From contig JAPOPA010000348.1 in the NCBI GenBank assembly GCA_026713145.1, forward strand, positions 1 through 37,320: DNA of 37,320 nucleotides, in the 5' to 3' direction. Shown here piece by piece: positions 22,316 through 37,028 of this stretch (position 1 is the first letter of the stretch; the number at the start of each line of letters is the position of its first letter). This DNA is from Chloroflexota bacterium. Lineage in GTDB: Bacteria > Chloroflexota > Dehalococcoidia > Lucifugimonadales > VXLM01. Under the pieces are notes generated by a model. That model did not search any database, was not told the origin of the DNA, and worked only from the letters and a program-made list of their open reading frames with translations. Position numbers and translations under genes: made by a program.

Positions 22316-23380
22316 GTGACCAGAGCGATTCTGCTAGTCGTAGTTATTGCGCTCTTCATATCCATTGCCGGAGGCGCCGTCGGAAACGCATTTGGCCTCG
22401 GCTTCCTCGGCGCTCCCATGGCGCACATCCAGCTCCCTGCCGAGCCCGTTATTCCCGAGCCCCTGGCGAAGACAGATACCGCCTTCATTCGGGACATCAC
22501 CATAACGAACACAATGGTCGCCTCTTGGGCGGCCATTATTTTGCTCGTCGTCGTTTCGGTCATCGTTTCGCGCAAGGCCTCAACGGTCCCCGGCCGGCTG
22601 CAGGGGATGATCGAGATGGTCTTCGAGTTCTTCCTCGGTATTGGCGAGAGCATCGCAGGAGAACACGCCCGCCGATTCTTCCCCCTGGTGATGACCATCT
22701 TCCTGTTTATCATCGTCAACAACTGGATCGGCATCCTTCCCGGTTTCGGCACAATCGGATGGGTCGAGTCACCGAAGAAGGTGTTATACCACGCAGAGGA
22801 GAAGGCCGAGAGAGCCGGAGAGCACGTAGACCTAGCACACGTCGATCTTCAGGTGTTCGAGGGTACGGGAGCGCTGGTGATGCTGCCTCCCGGCTCAGTC
22901 GACAACCACATCTCGGTCGAGGAGTATGAGCGAGGCGAAGGCTTTGACAAGGAGAGTCAGACGCCCGGACTGCTGATCCCGTACCTCAGGAGCGCCAACA
23001 CCGACATCAATACACCGCTGGCCCTCGCCCTCATAGCGATGGTCGCGATCCACTGGTGGGGCCTGAGCACGCTGGGGATATTCGGTCACGTCGGCAAGTT
23101 CATCAACTTAAAGCAGGGACCGATCATGTTGATCGTCGGTCTCCTGGAGATCATCGGCGAGCTTGCGCGGATCGTCAGCTTCACCTTCAGGCTATTCGGC
23201 AACATCTTTGCGGGCGAAATGCTGCTCATAATCATGGCGTTCCTCCTGCCCGTGATCGGACTCATACCGTTCCTCGGCCTGGAGCTGTTCGTGGGATTCA
23301 TGCAGGCCATTGTGTTCTCGGTACTGACCCTCGTGTTCGCGTCGATGGCGGTCGTCGCTCATAACGGCGAGCACCACTAA
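22316..23380 (+). CDS. atpB: F0F1 ATP synthase subunit a
   Basis: FPLVMTIFLFIIVNNWIGILPG and FTFRLFGNIFAGE with essential Arg; GTG start. Confidence 0.94.
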   Translation: MTRAILLVVVIALFISIAGGAVGNAFGLGFLGAPMAHIQLPAEPVIPEPLAKTDTAFIRDITITNTMVASWAAIILLVVVSVIVSRKASTVPGRLQGMIEMVFEFFLGIGESIAGEHARRFFPLVMTIFLFIIVNNWIGILPGFGTIGWVESPKKVLYHAEEKAERAGEHVDLAHVDLQVFEGTGALVMLPPGSVDNHISVEEYERGEGFDKESQTPGLLIPYLRSANTDINTPLALALIAMVAIHWWGLSTLGIFGHVGKFINLKQGPIMLIVGLLEIIGELARIVSFTFRLFGNIFAGEMLLIIMAFLLPVIGLIPFLGLELFVGFMQAIVFSVLTLVFASMAVVAHNGEHH

Positions 23381-23656
<276 letters not shown>

Positions 23657-23687
23657 GCACGCCCATTAGGTGAACCGACGTGAAGGT

Positions 23688-23706
23688 CCGGCCTGGGAAT
23701 GGCCGG
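23688..23706 (+). promoter_or_regulatory. atpE-atpF intercistronic hairpin
   Basis: CCGGCC-TGGGAAT-GGCCGG, 6-bp GC stem between subunit c and b genes. Confidence 0.55.
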
Positions 23707-23730
23707 TAGGCTTCGCGTCAAGGAGAGAGC

Positions 23731-24231
23731 ATGGAAGCCCTAGGATTACACCTGCCGCAGTTGATTGCGCAGATCGTTGGCTTTCTCGTCCTGCTGTTCA
23801 TCCTCAGCAAGCTACTCTACAAGCCGCTGCTCAAAGTCATAGACGAGCGTTCGGCCAAGATCAAAGAGAGCCTCGAAGCGGCTGAGAGTGCGAAAGAGCA
23901 GGCCGCCGCCAGCCAGGAGCAGATGCAGGAGGACATAAGGAAGGCGCGCGAGGAGGGCCAGCAAATGATCGCGCAGGCCCGGGATGTCGCAGCGCGGTTC
24001 CGCGACGAAGAGATGGCGAAGGCAAGAGACGAGATCGCCGCCGAGCGCGCAAAGGCCGAGGCCGATATTCAGCGTGAACGAGACTCGGCCATCGAGGACC
24101 TGCGACAGGAGTTCGCCGGACTCGCGATCAGCGCCGCCGAACGCGTGGTGGAGCGTTCGCTCAGCGAGTCGGACCATCGCGACATCATTGATAGAGTGCT
24201 CGAAGAGAGCGGGACCATAGGAAAAGGATAG
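23731..24231 (+). CDS. atpF: F0F1 ATP synthase subunit b
   Basis: 166 aa; N-terminal TM LIAQIVGFLVLLFILSKLLYKPL then charged coiled coil. Confidence 0.95.
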   Translation: MEALGLHLPQLIAQIVGFLVLLFILSKLLYKPLLKVIDERSAKIKESLEAAESAKEQAAASQEQMQEDIRKAREEGQQMIAQARDVAARFRDEEMAKARDEIAAERAKAEADIQRERDSAIEDLRQEFAGLAISAAERVVERSLSESDHRDIIDRVLEESGTIGKG

Positions 24232-24244
24232 ACCTCAGCCCGAC

Positions 24245-24309
24245 CTCCTCAAGATGTCTTCAGGATTGAGGAGATTTCGGGAGGCACGTTTGTGACTGCT
24301 GATAGTCAC
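24245..24309 (+). promoter_or_regulatory. Two tandem hairpins between atpF and atpH
   Basis: CTCCTCAA(24245..24252)/TTGAGGAG(24266..24273) and GTGACT(24292..24297)/AGTCAC(24304..24309). Confidence 0.45.
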
Positions 24310-24347
24310 GGACTGCTGTGGAACCAGACGGAGTAGACGAAGAAACT

Positions 24348-24890
24348 ATGCCACGATATCCGTCGGCAAGAAGGTACGCACAGGCCGTGTTCCAGATTGC
24401 ATTGGAACACGACAGCCTTGATGTGTGGGTCGACGACCTGCAAACGTTGGCCGATCTGCTTGACGACAAGCAGGTTGCCGCGTTTCTCGACGCGCCGCAG
24501 GTGCCGGAAGCCAGGAAGCTGCAGGCCATTCAGGAACTGCTCGGCGATTCGGTCGGCACGCTGTCGGGCAACCTGCTACGCCTTCTCGCGACAAAGAATA
24601 TGACGCTCTTGATACCCGCCGTCTTGGAGCAGTTTACCGAAATGGTCGACAAACACCGAGGCATTGAGTGGGCAGACGTCACGACCGTGGTGCCGCTGGA
24701 CGATGCCCAGCAGAAGGAAGTAGCACAACTCTTGAGTGGCATTGCCGGAAGCGAGGTCAGTCTCCGGACCTACGTCGAACCGGAGCTTATCGGCGGCATA
24801 GTCGCTCGACTGAACGACCGTGTTATCGACGGGAGCGTCCGTAGCAAGCTGAGGAACATGCACCGGCAGGTAGTGGAACAGATCGGATAG
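24348..24890 (+). CDS. atpH: F0F1 ATP synthase subunit delta
   Basis: RYAQAVFQIALEHD N-terminus, C-terminal ELIGGIVARLNDRVIDGSVRSKL; ATG 24348 preferred over GTG 24318. Confidence 0.94.
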   Translation: MPRYPSARRYAQAVFQIALEHDSLDVWVDDLQTLADLLDDKQVAAFLDAPQVPEARKLQAIQELLGDSVGTLSGNLLRLLATKNMTLLIPAVLEQFTEMVDKHRGIEWADVTTVVPLDDAQQKEVAQLLSGIAGSEVSLRTYVEPELIGGIVARLNDRVIDGSVRSKLRNMHRQVVEQIG

Positions 24891-24944
24891 AACGTAGCGT
24901 ACTGCTTGGCTGTGACGAGCAATACGCAATAGCCGGAGGGTTAT

Positions 24945-26456
24945 ATGGCAGTACGAGGACAGGACATAGCGTCCGTAATCAAGCGTCAGATCGAGGAGTT
25001 CGGTCAGGAACTCACGATGGTGGACGTTGGCACCGTCGTAGAGGTGGGAGACGGCATCGCCCGGGTCCACGGCCTCTCCGGTGTAGGAGCGAACGAGCTC
25101 CTTGAGTTTGAGGGCGGCGTCATCGGAATGGCGCTGACCCTCGAAGAGGACAGCGTGGGATCGGTCATCATGGGCGACCCGCTGGCTGTCAAAGAGGGAA
25201 GCGAGGTGCGCGGCACGGGCCGCGTCGCCGAGGTGCCCGTTGGCGAAGCCCTCCTGGGTCGAGTCGTTGACGGCATCGGCAGACCCATCGACGGCAAGGG
25301 CCCGATTCGCACGACTGAGACGAGGGCCGTCGAATTCCTTGCTCCCGACGTGGCGTCCCGTGAGCCCGTGAATGTCCCGATGCAGACCGGCGTCAAGGCA
25401 ATCGACGCAATGGTGCCGATCGGGCGTGGACAGCGCGAGCTCATCATCGGCGACCGCTCCACCGGCAAGACCGCAATCTGTACCGATACGATCATCAACC
25501 AGAAGGGCGGCGACCTCATCTGCATATACGTCGCCATCGGCCAGAAGGTCGGCAAGGTCGCGCAGCTGCAGGCAACATTGGAGCAGCACGGGGCGATGGA
25601 GTACTCCATCATCGTCGCCGCCAACGCCTCCGACCCCGCCCCGCTCCAATATCTCGCGCCGTACGCCGGCTGCGCGATGGGCGAGTACTTTATGTACAAG
25701 GGCCAGGACGCCCTCATCATGTACGACGACCTTTCGAAACATGCATGGGCCTACCGCCAGATGTCCCTCCTGCTCAGGCGACCTCCCGGACGCGAGGCCT
25801 ATCCCGGCGACGTGTTCTTCCTGCACAGCAGGCTTCTCGAACGTGCCGCCCGTGTGTCGCAAGATCTTGGCGGCGGTTCGCTTACCGCCCTACCGATCAT
25901 CGAGACGCTGGCGGGCGACGTGTCGGCATACGTTCCGACCAACGTCATCTCCATCACGGACGGCCAGATCTATCTGGAGCCGGAGCTGTTCGCGTCGGGC
26001 ATCCGCCCCGCCGTGAACGCAGGTCTCTCGGTGTCCCGCGTCGGTGGAAGCGCGCAAACGCGAGGCATGAAGGGTGTGGCCGGTAGGATGCGCATCGAGT
26101 TGGCGCAGTACCGCGAGCTTGCCACCTTCGCCCAGTTCGGAACCTCCGACCTTGACGCGGCGACCAGGAGGCAGCTCGAACGAGGCCAGCGCGCCGTCGA
26201 GGTCCTCAAGCAGGACCAGAGCGTTCCGCTTCGAATGGAGCAGCAAGTCGCCATCCTCTTTGCCCTCGTTAACGGACACCTCGACGATGTTGAGATATCC
26301 AAGGTAATCGCATTCGAGCGGGCGTTCCACGACTTCATGAGTTCGAACCACCCGGCGATTCTTGAGAGCATCGCCGATTCCAAGGACGTTACGGAGGAGA
26401 CCGGCGAGTCACTGAACAAGGCGGTCATGGAATTCAAGGAGAGCGTGCCGTATTAG
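24945..26456 (+). CDS. atpA: F0F1 ATP synthase subunit alpha
   Basis: 503 aa; [10 protein letters not shown] Walker A-like, [22 protein letters not shown]. Confidence 0.98.
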
Positions 26457-26462
26457 GTCGAG

Positions 26463-26753
26463 ATGCAAAAGCAGCGCCGAGTCCTGGTAGTCGGAAGAAA
26501 CACGGACGATATGGATACCGTAACCGCGACGCTTGAGGGCAACGGCTACTCCGTGACGGGAACGCTGCACGACGACATAGCCGTCGACCTCGCGGGTTCG
26601 TCCGAGTTCGACGCCATCCTGATGGCAGACATGACACAGATAGAGCGGACCGGGCTGAGAGGCCAGATCCTGAAGAAACAACCGAAGATCAAGGTGGTGC
26701 AAGCCGAAGGCCCCGAATCGGTGCTGACACTGCTCAAGCAGGCCCTGCGGTAG
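26463..26753 (+). CDS. Receiver-like (degenerate REC) small protein embedded in the atp operon
   Basis: 96 aa; RVLVVGRNTDDMDTVTATLEGNGYSVTG...FDAILMADMTQIERTGLRGQILKKQPKIKVVQAEG...LTLLKQAL: receiver-like alternation with altered active-site positions; starts 7 nt after atpA stop and ends 10 nt before atpG start. Confidence 0.75.
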   Translation: MQKQRRVLVVGRNTDDMDTVTATLEGNGYSVTGTLHDDIAVDLAGSSEFDAILMADMTQIERTGLRGQILKKQPKIKVVQAEGPESVLTLLKQALR

Positions 26754-26763
26754 GGAAGAGAAA

Positions 26764-27639
26764 TTGCCAAGCGTAAGACAGCTTAGGCGACGCATCCGAA
26801 GCGTCGAGAACACAGCCAAGATAACGAAGGCGATGTCGATGATCGCGGCTTCCAAGATGCGCCGCGCCCAGGAGATGGCCCTTCAGAGCAGGCCGTACGC
26901 CGAGGACATGCGCAATCTTCTCGCCGACCTTGCCGCCCAGCCCGCCCCGGACGACGAGGAGTACATCCATCCATTGCTCCGCCGACGCGAGATCAAGCGG
27001 GCGGAGATCGTAGTGATAACTCCGGACCGCGGACTCACGGGTGGACTCCACAGCAGGATCAACCGCGCCGTAGGCGAGTTCATCTTGGAGCGACAGAAGG
27101 AAGGCGTTGAAACCAGCATCATTGCCGTCGGGCGGAAGGGCCGCGACTTCTTGGTGAGGACGGGGCAGGAAGTCCGGGCGGTATTCAGCGACCTCGGCGA
27201 CCGTCCCGAGCTAGAGGACGTTCGCCCAATCGCCACGTTAGTAAACGACGAATATGGCGAGGAGCGCGTGGATGCCGTGTACTTGGCCTACGCCGACTTC
27301 GTGAGCACGGTCACGCAGAGGCCGGTTGTCCAGCCGCTCCTGCCCGTTGTCCCGGCAGAACTGGAGTACAAGGACATGGTCGGGTACATCTACGAGCCCG
27401 ACCCGCTCACCGTGATGGCCGCGTTGCTGCCGCGCTTCGTTGACATGCAGGTCTACCACGCGGTCTTGGAGAGCGTGGCGAGCGAGCAGTCGGCCAGAAT
27501 GGTGGCGATGAGGAACGCGACGGACAACGCCAACGACATGGTTGCCGACCTTACGTTGGCAATGAACAAGGCCCGCCAGGAGTCGATTACGTCCGAGTTG
27601 CTGGACATCGTGGGCGGCGCGGCGGCTGTCGAAGCATAG
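26764..27639 (+). CDS. atpG: F0F1 ATP synthase subunit gamma
   Basis: MPSVRQLRRRIRSVENTAKITKAMSMIAASKMRRAQ; C-terminal MVAMRNATDNANDMV; TTG start. Confidence 0.96.
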   Translation: MPSVRQLRRRIRSVENTAKITKAMSMIAASKMRRAQEMALQSRPYAEDMRNLLADLAAQPAPDDEEYIHPLLRRREIKRAEIVVITPDRGLTGGLHSRINRAVGEFILERQKEGVETSIIAVGRKGRDFLVRTGQEVRAVFSDLGDRPELEDVRPIATLVNDEYGEERVDAVYLAYADFVSTVTQRPVVQPLLPVVPAELEYKDMVGYIYEPDPLTVMAALLPRFVDMQVYHAVLESVASEQSARMVAMRNATDNANDMVADLTLAMNKARQESITSELLDIVGGAAAVEA

Positions 27640-29091
<1,452 letters not shown>

Positions 29092-34240: not shown

Positions 34241-35671
34241 ATGCCGTCCTCCAACTCATACGACGCGGTTGTCATCGGCGCGGGCCCGAACGGGCTGTCG
34301 GCTGCCATCGTGCTGGCGCAGGCGGGTAGGTCGGTCCTTGTCGTCGAGGGGAAGGAGACCGTCGGTGGCGGTATGCGTTCCGCCGAACTGACCCTGCCCG
34401 GCTTCGTTCACGATATCTGCTCGACCGCCTACCCGCTTGGGGCAGGCTCGCCGTTCTTCAGTTCCCTGCCTCTCGTCGAGCACGGCCTCGAATGGGTCCA
34501 TCCGATTGCACCGGTAACTCATCCCCTCGAAGATGGAGCGACCGCCGTGCTGCATCGTTCCGTGACGAAGACGGCAGATGGGTTGGACTCCGACGTTGAG
34601 GCATACGGCAAGCTCATGGGGCCGCTTGTAGCCGGCTGGGACGATTCCATCGAATACCTGCTGTCGCCGTTTCGAGGAACACCAAGGCATCCCCTGGCGA
34701 TGATGCGATTTGGCCTATCCGGTCTTCGGTCGGTCGAGTCGGTGGCGAACAGCAGGTTTGTGGGGGAAAAGGCCCGCGCCTTGTTCGCGGGAATTGGGGC
34801 CCATTCGATGCTTCCTCTCGACCGTTCATCCACAGCCGCAGTCGGACTCGTTCTCAGCATGGCGGGACACGCGGTGGGCTGGCCTTTCGCCCGTGGCGGC
34901 GCGCAGTCGATTGCGCGAGCGCTGGTGTCGTACTTGGAGTCGCTTGGAGGGGAGATCGTCACGAATTGGCAAATCGAGTCTCTTGATGATCTGCCGGAAA
35001 GCAGGGCGGTCCTCTGCGACATCTCTCCCGCTCAGCTACTAGGGATCGCCGGAGACAGACTGGACGGGCGTTATCGTCGGCGTCTTGAGTCGTATCGGTA
35101 CGGGGTCGGAGTCTTCAAGATAGACTTTGCGCTGGACGGGCCGATTCCATGGAAGTCGCCACAGACCGCATGGGGCGGGACCGTTCATGTCGGGGGAACG
35201 CTGGAAGAGATCGCCGATGCGGAGGCGACGGTCTGGAACGGTAAAGTGCCCGAGAGACCGTTCCTGCTGGTCGCTCAGCCCAGCCTGTTCGACGATTCGC
35301 GTGCACCGGACGGGAGGCACACGGCCTGGGCGTACACTCACGTCCCCAGCGGATCGACGTTCGATGCGACCGACCGGATGGAGACGCAGATCGAGCGGTT
35401 TGCCCCCGGCTTCCGTGAACGGATTCTGGCCAAGCATGTCATGAGTCCGTCGGCGCTGCAGGACTACAATGCGAACTACATCGGCGGAGACATCAACGGC
35501 GGCGTTCAGGACTCCCGTCAGACTTTCGCCCGACCGATGCTTCGTTGGAACCCGTACTCCACCCCGGTCAAGGGCCTGTATATGTGCTCCGCTTCCACGC
35601 CGCCGGGCGGAGGCGTCCACGGTATGGGCGGCTACCACGCCGCACGGTCGGCACTGCGTGACGTCTTTTGA
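34241..35671 (+). CDS. Phytoene desaturase-like NAD(P)/FAD-dependent oxidoreductase
   Basis: 476 aa; YDAVVIGAGPNGLSAAIVLAQAGRSVLVVEGKETVGGGMRS dinucleotide-binding motif, C-terminal STPPGGGVHGMGGYHAA. TGA stop. Confidence 0.93.
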   Translation: MPSSNSYDAVVIGAGPNGLSAAIVLAQAGRSVLVVEGKETVGGGMRSAELTLPGFVHDICSTAYPLGAGSPFFSSLPLVEHGLEWVHPIAPVTHPLEDGATAVLHRSVTKTADGLDSDVEAYGKLMGPLVAGWDDSIEYLLSPFRGTPRHPLAMMRFGLSGLRSVESVANSRFVGEKARALFAGIGAHSMLPLDRSSTAAVGLVLSMAGHAVGWPFARGGAQSIARALVSYLESLGGEIVTNWQIESLDDLPESRAVLCDISPAQLLGIAGDRLDGRYRRRLESYRYGVGVFKIDFALDGPIPWKSPQTAWGGTVHVGGTLEEIADAEATVWNGKVPERPFLLVAQPSLFDDSRAPDGRHTAWAYTHVPSGSTFDATDRMETQIERFAPGFRERILAKHVMSPSALQDYNANYIGGDINGGVQDSRQTFARPMLRWNPYSTPVKGLYMCSASTPPGGGVHGMGGYHAARSALRDVF

Positions 35672-35780
35672 ATTACTGTCCGCGTCGAGATCGAGTATTG
35701 TATACGGACCGCATCCTGAGCCCCACACCGGCATCGAATCCTGCTTCCCTGCATCGAATTAACTGAAGGAGAATTTGTAC

Positions 35781-37028
35781 ATGAACCTTAGTCCACCTCA
35801 TACCCTGCTCGCCGGACTCACCGTCGCTACGCTCGTGGTCGTGGCCGCGGCGTGCGGCTCCCAAGAGTCATCCGAACCGGCTCCGGAGGAAGGTACTGCC
35901 GTTGTGCAGCCTGCCTCCTCGCCTCAACCGGAGCCAACTTCGTCCCCGGAGCCCGAGCCGTCCCCCGAACCGACCGAAGCGCCGGTGGCCTCATCCGAGA
36001 CTCAAGCCGAAGAGGATGACCCTTGGGGAGACCGCTACGATCCCTTCAAGGTGAGTTCGGTAGACGTTGACGGCACGCGCTACGAGGTTATGAACATCCT
36101 TCCCAAGGACGCCATTCGAGCGATATTCGAACCAAACTTCTTCAGGGCGGATGAGGCCAGGAATCAGTACCGTGAAACCGATCTGGTAATTGGAGTTTCC
36201 GTAGGTGGCGAACACCGGGCATACAACGTGGCCTACCTCAGCGGGCACGAGATCGTCAACGACGTAGTTGGAGGCAAGCCGATTGCGGTCACATGGTGAC
36301 CGCTTTGCTTCACGGCCATAGTCTATGGCCGAGAACTTGAAGAAGAGACGGTTAACTTCGGCGTGTCAGGCCGGCTGATAATGAACGCTCTCGTGATGTA
36401 CGACAGGGAGACCAATTCGCTGTGGAGTCAATTTCTTGGCAAGGCCATCCACGGGCAGTGCAAGGGCACGGAGTTGGAGATCGTTCCCTCTCAACTCACC
36501 AACTATGGGACCTGGACCAAGGCTCACCCTGACACCAAGGTGCTCGACACTCACACGAGCTACCCGATTGACGACCATTACCTCACCTACTATCGGGAGC
36601 AAAAGGCAGGCATCCTCGGCGAAAGGAACCCCGACGAGCGACTCCGGATAAAGGACATCATCCTCGGAGTGACGGGCGATCAGGGCCAGATAGCCTACAA
36701 CTATCTCGACCTAATAGAGGCGGAGGTAATAAACCACGAGTTCGAAGGGACGCCAATCGTCGCCGCAGTGGACCGAGAGGGCGGTGGCACCGCGATATTC
36801 CGGCGCACGGTTGACGGTCAGGTACTGGAATTCGAGTCGCTCGACGGAACCACCATGACCGATACCGAGTCGAGTTCCGTATGGGACAAAGCCTCAGGCC
36901 TTGCGGTTAGCGGCTCGATGAAAGGGACTCAACTCGAAACCCACCCGTTCATCCTATCCTTCTGGTTCGCGTGGACGGACTTCTACCCGGACACCGACCT
37001 CTACGAACCTGTGCCGATGGAGGGTTAG
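35781..37028 (+). CDS. Candidate selenoprotein: DUF3179-like lipoprotein with in-frame UGA (Sec173) replacing the first Cys of CPLC
   Basis: ATG 35781 with AAGGAG upstream; lipobox VVAAACGS; HEIVNDVVGGKPIAVTW-[TGA 36297..36299]-PLCFTAIVYGRELEEETVNFGVSGRLIMNALVMYDRETNSLWSQF. Same frame before and after, no other stop until TAG 37026..37028. Confidence 0.85.
36313..36331 (+). promoter_or_regulatory. Candidate bacterial SECIS (bSECIS) stem-loop
   Basis: CGGCCATA-GTC-TATGGCCG: perfect 8-bp stem, loop begins with G, loop starts 22 nt after the last base of the in-frame TGA. Confidence 0.75.

Follow-up and report, generated by a model that had tools for sequence, protein, structure and literature searches.

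A predicted bacterial SECIS element within a DUF3179 selenoprotein gene of a SAR202-type Chloroflexota genome

The DUF3179 gene and the hairpin behind its in-frame TGA

The window analyzed here is a stretch of 37,320 nucleotides from a draft MAG (92% complete, 398 contigs) of a marine Chloroflexota bacterium. Its assignment to the SAR202 type follows from the closest relatives that have names, Dehalococcoidia/SAR202-type MAGs including SB0661_bin_13 and IRC4_bin_30. Its forward strand carries a gene of 415 codons at 35781-37028, with a frame that stays open across a TGA and ends with a TAG at 37026-37028. The product matches the Pfam profile PF11376 (DUF3179) from position 1 to 292 of 292 (E = 2.5e-81; 273.7 bits against a curated cut-off of 27), while NCBIfam holds no model for it and a sequence search of the PDB returned no homolog. 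Its N-terminus resembles that of a lipoprotein, with a putative lipobox, VAAAC, that places Cys25 at 35853-35855. Elsewhere in the window, ATP synthase genes (A chain, alpha/beta-family subunits) were observed at 22316-29091. The features of the locus are as follows.

35765..35772, + strand: GAAGGAGA, a putative Shine-Dalgarno-like sequence
35781..37028, + strand: DUF3179-domain selenoprotein gene (predicted), 415 codons with TGA taken as Sec; Pfam PF11376, frame open across the TGA
36297..36299, + strand: in-frame TGA, predicted Sec codon (residue 173, the U of UPLC); Cys homologs have the leading Cys of CPLC in this column
36300..36312, + strand: 13-nt spacer CCGCTTTGCTTCA between the Sec codon and the stem, equal in length in canonical-register homologs
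36306..36308, + strand: TGC, Cys176, second residue of the UxxC motif; Cys in 41 of 43 aligned homologs and Thr in 2
36313..36320, + strand: 5' arm of the predicted SECIS stem, CGGCCATA, from fold and covariation
36321..36323, + strand: apical loop GTC of the predicted SECIS (AGTCT if the top A-U pair opens), its G and the following G/T conserved
36324..36331, + strand: 3' arm of the predicted SECIS stem, TATGGCCG, from fold and covariation

The hairpin at 36313-36331 was found exactly as the first-pass annotation had described it, with a perfect 8-bp stem, a 3-nt loop starting with G and 21 nt between the TGA and the loop. RNA folding of these 19 positions returned the drawn hairpin (-11 kcal/mol, z = -4.2), and the 49 nt at 36297-36345 again gave precisely this structure at -15 kcal/mol (z = -2.5), with 3 of 200 shuffles folding as well. 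Such hairpins are rare by chance: the window contains only three perfect 8-bp stems with 3-nt loops, a comparable structure (at least 7 perfect bp, G at loop position 1 or 2, a distance of 16-37 nt) follows about 0.5% of its TGA triplets, and the 8-bp stem arises in 0.3% of codon redraws that keep the protein sequence fixed. What relatives conserve is a stem of 7 bp closed by a loop of 5 nt, N-G-[G/U]-N-U, and the eighth A-U pair of the window is optional. A scan of the region against Rfam gave no matching or relevant model, a result that is uninformative for bacterial SECIS elements. The SECIS of E. coli fdhF carries a bulged U in its upper stem; the window hairpin shares with it a position in frame just after UGA and a small loop containing G (AGUCU or GUC here), and differs in having no bulged U, an absence on which we agree with the earlier annotation.

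A second perfect 8-bp hairpin with a 3-nt loop was noticed at 36285-36303 (GCGGTCAC ATG GTGACCGC), directly upstream of the predicted SECIS and with the TGA in its 3' arm. Its pairing in homologs reached 6.17 of 8 positions against 5.61 under a synonymous null, and clear compensatory changes were absent. As this is only slightly more than the codons require, we regard it chiefly as a side effect of the codons for VTWUP.

The window protein carries the motif UPLC where relatives carry CPLC. Downstream of the TGA, comparison with the ortholog L034 gave dN 0.16 and dS 1.09 (dN/dS about 0.15), and by this measure purifying selection is acting on the region after the TGA. The same stretch bears on the possibility that a SECIS at this site is mainly regulatory, with read-through that depends on selenium and a second product cut short at residue 172. 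Selenocysteine decoding does compete in principle with termination, and the genome also encodes a Cys paralog (L004) that lacks the hairpin. However, a functional truncated product is unsupported, and the residues just after the TGA are among the most conserved, so that we consider a mainly regulatory role unlikely.

Stem pairing and the TGA codon among homologs

The codon at the Sec/Cys column of each homolog was extracted with a profile HMM, yielding 114 distinct sequences with TGA, 63 with Cys and 3 others. Could the hairpin be conserved merely through the peptide that it encodes (GIVYAR and similar), with no function as RNA? A synonymous redraw of the TGA rows already pairs 4.02 of the 7 stem positions (sd 0.09), and part of the pairing does come from the peptide. 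The observed value, however, was 6.23 of 7. The Cys rows paired 2.92 of 7 positions against 2.72 under the synonymous null, and none of the 63 formed a full stem.

Compensatory change was equally clear. Among 73 non-redundant TGA sequences, six of the seven stem pairs showed changes on both sides, with 69 both-sides cells against 16.5 in shuffles and 92.4% of cells paired against 73.7%. The covariation score of 0.405 (0.097 when shuffled) was reached by none of 500 shuffles, although these do not keep relatedness and the tree test below therefore matters. Sliding the partner arm by one to three columns lowered pairing from 92% to 48% or less. The G at loop column 25 and the T at column 28 were invariant in the 73 sequences. 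Within the genus, the two arms differ together, reading CGGCCATA/TATGGCCG in the window, CGGCCGTA/TACGGCCG in L034, CGGGAATA/TATTCCCG in L030 and CGGGCATA/TATGCCCG in L035. Two outcomes that the first-pass annotation had named as speaking against a SECIS, UGA orthologs without stem conservation or compensatory change and Cys orthologs with an equal hairpin, were thus looked for, and neither occurred.

The encoded peptide follows the same pattern. Residues +6 and +10 occur as G-A, G-S, A-G, A-S and A-R, and their codons are complementary (e.g., GGC/GCC, GGA/TCC, GCC/GGC and GCT/AGC), whereas Cys homologs, which have no stem, carry mostly A and D at these positions. As read from these codons, the peptide residues covary in a way that keeps the RNA stem paired, and conservation through the peptide alone is, in our judgment, very improbable. 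Some departures from the canonical register exist. A subfamily with UPLCN..F.FRR has its register shifted by one nucleotide, and the stem of the UTLC paralog L005 from the window's genus appears to contain a one-nucleotide bulge. The Cys copies of this genus (L004, L032, L037 and L038, with CTLC or CVLC) have no stem.

One DUF3179 fragment (L127, 16-480) was seen to carry CGA (Arg) in place of TGA and PLS in place of PLC, yet to keep 6 of 7 stem pairs; it has possibly lost its Sec codon recently, or it contains a sequence error.

The tie between codon and hairpin was also followed on a maximum-likelihood tree of 178 proteins, from which the hairpin-coding residues were left out. Under a looser threshold, which allows any of three registers and was the same for Cys rows, the hairpin was present in 111 of 113 TGA rows, L173 and L126 being the two that missed it, and in none of the 65 other rows. 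Both the Sec codon and the hairpin changed 11 times on the tree. Seven supported independent pairs were available, for which an average of 6.5 changed in the same direction and none in the opposite one; the sign test gave a median p of 0.03, from 7 pairs only. At one locus (L100), tandem copies on a single contig differ in the same sense, the UGA copy having the stem and the Cys copy, at a tree distance of 0.29, lacking it.

A covariance model of the element matched exactly four UGA paralogs in the window's genome at E < 1e-9. As the model includes these paralogs or close relatives, and its E-values are rough owing to a shortened calibration, this is a check of specificity and not an independent discovery. 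Further matches on C188, C332 and C57 (best E = 0.015) gave no convincing Sec genes on translation and were set aside.

Selenocysteine machinery and reading of the UGA

The genome of the window encodes a tRNA-Sec with anticodon TCA, SelA, a SelB with the winged-helix domains SelB-wing_2 and wing_3, and a SelD with an in-frame TGA of its own in the motif HCAGUAG. Four of its five DUF3179 paralogs have a TGA in the domain, the Cys paralog mentioned above being without the hairpin. Across the order, DUF3179 is present in 90 of 147 genomes, many with TGA, and SelB was found in 135 of 147, so that SelB presence does not discriminate. One of the UGA copies (L108) belongs to Candidatus Lucifugimonas marina JH1073, a relative whose genome is complete.

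Several observations were made alongside. The selD gene (L025, 1393-2463, minus strand) is, by its TGA, a selenoprotein gene as well; 33 nt downstream of that codon stands a hairpin of 9 bp with a GUG loop. On contig G000:C250, about 6 kb separate selB (L017, 30579-32417) from a DUF3179 paralog with UGA (L003, 38671-39567), and G001:C113 likewise carries selB and a UGA DUF3179 paralog. In genome G044, where SelB was not found, a DUF3179 protein (L206) has Ser-Pro-Ile-Ser in place of CPLC.

We conclude that the hairpin is almost certainly a standard bacterial SECIS element, by which SelB and Sec-tRNA-Sec would deliver selenocysteine at UGA 173. This agrees with the first-pass interpretation, which is supported by the covarying stem in UGA homologs, its absence from Cys ones and the Sec machinery of the same genome. 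The hairpin, its covariation, its link to the UGA and the machinery genes are all read directly from sequence. The locus also shows what is expected of a selenoprotein gene, namely a UGA aligned with a conserved Cys and a host with tRNA-Sec, SelA, SelB and SelD.

In every respect the element falls within the consensus model of bacterial SECIS (bSECIS) elements, which constrains loop, stem, G position, distance and energy (PMC13188914, Fig. 2A). Its 3-nt loop and 8-bp stem (or 5 nt and 7 bp) lie within the ranges of 3-9 nt and 4-16 bp for loop and upper stem; its loop GTC has a G at position 1 (or 2) followed by U, where the model expects a G at one of the first two positions and usually a G or U next; its 21 nt lie within the 16-37 nt allowed between UGA and apical loop; and the hairpin alone, at -11 kcal/mol, is below the limit of -7.5 kcal/mol. 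Within the model, the window's family stands out for its regularity: most homologs of the order share a spacer of exactly 13 nt and a loop of the form NG[GU]NU, and one DUF3179 subfamily has a shifted register. The loop does become AGTCT when the top A-U pair opens, as earlier proposed, but the likeness to fdhF drawn from it is less apt than the general bacterial model (PMC13188914).

The following sequence of events is proposed. When a ribosome reaches UGA 173 of the DUF3179 mRNA, SelB loaded with Sec-tRNA-Sec(UCA) would bind the stem-loop through its C-terminal winged-helix domains, the target being 7-8 bp with a loop N-G-[G/U]-N-U about 21 nt downstream. Selenocysteine would then be delivered, and the ribosome would not stop after residue 172 but read on as far as the TAG at 37026-37028. 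This would yield a probably exported lipoprotein with a UxxC redox motif, the export being predicted and the redox role suggested by the UxxC motif only. Cys homologs use CxxC and lack the hairpin.

Two further explanations of the TGA were weighed against this reading. UGA might be reassigned genome-wide to another amino acid (code 4 or 25), leaving the hairpin unneeded, and the TGA does read as sense in the frame of 35781-37028. This is refuted by TGA serving as the stop of other window genes, including a Pfam-supported FAD oxidoreductase at 34241-35671; moreover, the Sec machinery is present and the TGA replaces the motif Cys in DUF3179, and the probability of such a reassignment is in our view negligible. 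Alternatively, the gene might be a pseudogene whose TGA arose by nonsense mutation or through an error of assembly, with a hairpin there by chance. This has nothing in its favor other than the draft status of the MAG and is just as improbable. It is refuted by independent genomes, in which both the TGA and a covarying stem recur; in addition, 114 distinct homologous sequences and four of five paralogs have TGA at this codon, the region downstream is under purifying selection, and the hairpin is tied to the TGA on the tree.

DUF3179 with UxxC/T has already been listed as a selenoprotein family (reviews PMC9312934 and PMC13188914). The window protein shares with the listed members the PF11376 domain and Sec at the first position of a CxxC-type motif, and differs from them in its setting, SAR202-type Chloroflexota with several UGA paralogs per genome, both UPLC and UTLC variants and a Cys paralog in the same genome. 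The type of signal and the protein family were thus both known before, and the evolutionary evidence here is unusually clear. In a literature search largely outside subscription papers, we found no paper joining DUF3179 with SAR202.

In a gene family common in SAR202, a stop codon is very probably read as selenocysteine, and if so, annotation that takes it as a stop would truncate DUF3179 proteins and could call them pseudogenes. For comparing bacterial SECIS elements the family is unusually clean, with more than 100 UGA genes and more than 60 Cys genes: codon and hairpin come and go together, and the needs of the RNA stem make peptide residues covary. It also offers client proteins for the selA and selB genes of sponge symbionts, in whose genomes both are reported to be enriched (PMC5649159).

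Predicted fold and likeness to Rieske proteins

The AlphaFold model of the window protein is of high confidence across the domain (mean pLDDT of 83, with 300 residues at 90 or above), and its best PDB matches by Foldseek are Rieske ferredoxins (E = 0.007, probability about 1.0). The spacing H156-x16-U173-x2-C176 resembles the Rieske CxH-x(15-17)-CxxH. However, the window protein has SGH...UPLC where Rieske proteins have CxH...CxxH, the first Cys being absent and the second His replaced by Cys, so that the iron-sulfur cluster ligands of Rieske proteins are not conserved, and a profile-profile comparison of DUF3179 with Rieske (hhalign) gave a probability of 1.3%, indicating no relation. Given this negative comparison and the ligands, the link is a lead only. 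A tentative and rather doubtful reading would make DUF3179 a descendant of the Rieske fold in which the CxxH half-site became a UxxC/CxxC redox pair, forming an exported, non-thioredoxin Sec redox family expanded in SAR202 to several Sec paralogs per genome, with the SECIS having shaped the sequence after the active site.

Two observations on the domain itself may be added. The domain at 35781-37028 possibly contains an internal duplication, since the strand pattern of its first half seems to recur in its second, which lacks the U/C motif. In addition, a structural match to the DUF3179 model (E = 1.2e-8) was seen in a protein of the giant virus Indivirus ILV1 (A0A1V0SD44), which suggests a viral DUF3179-like protein.
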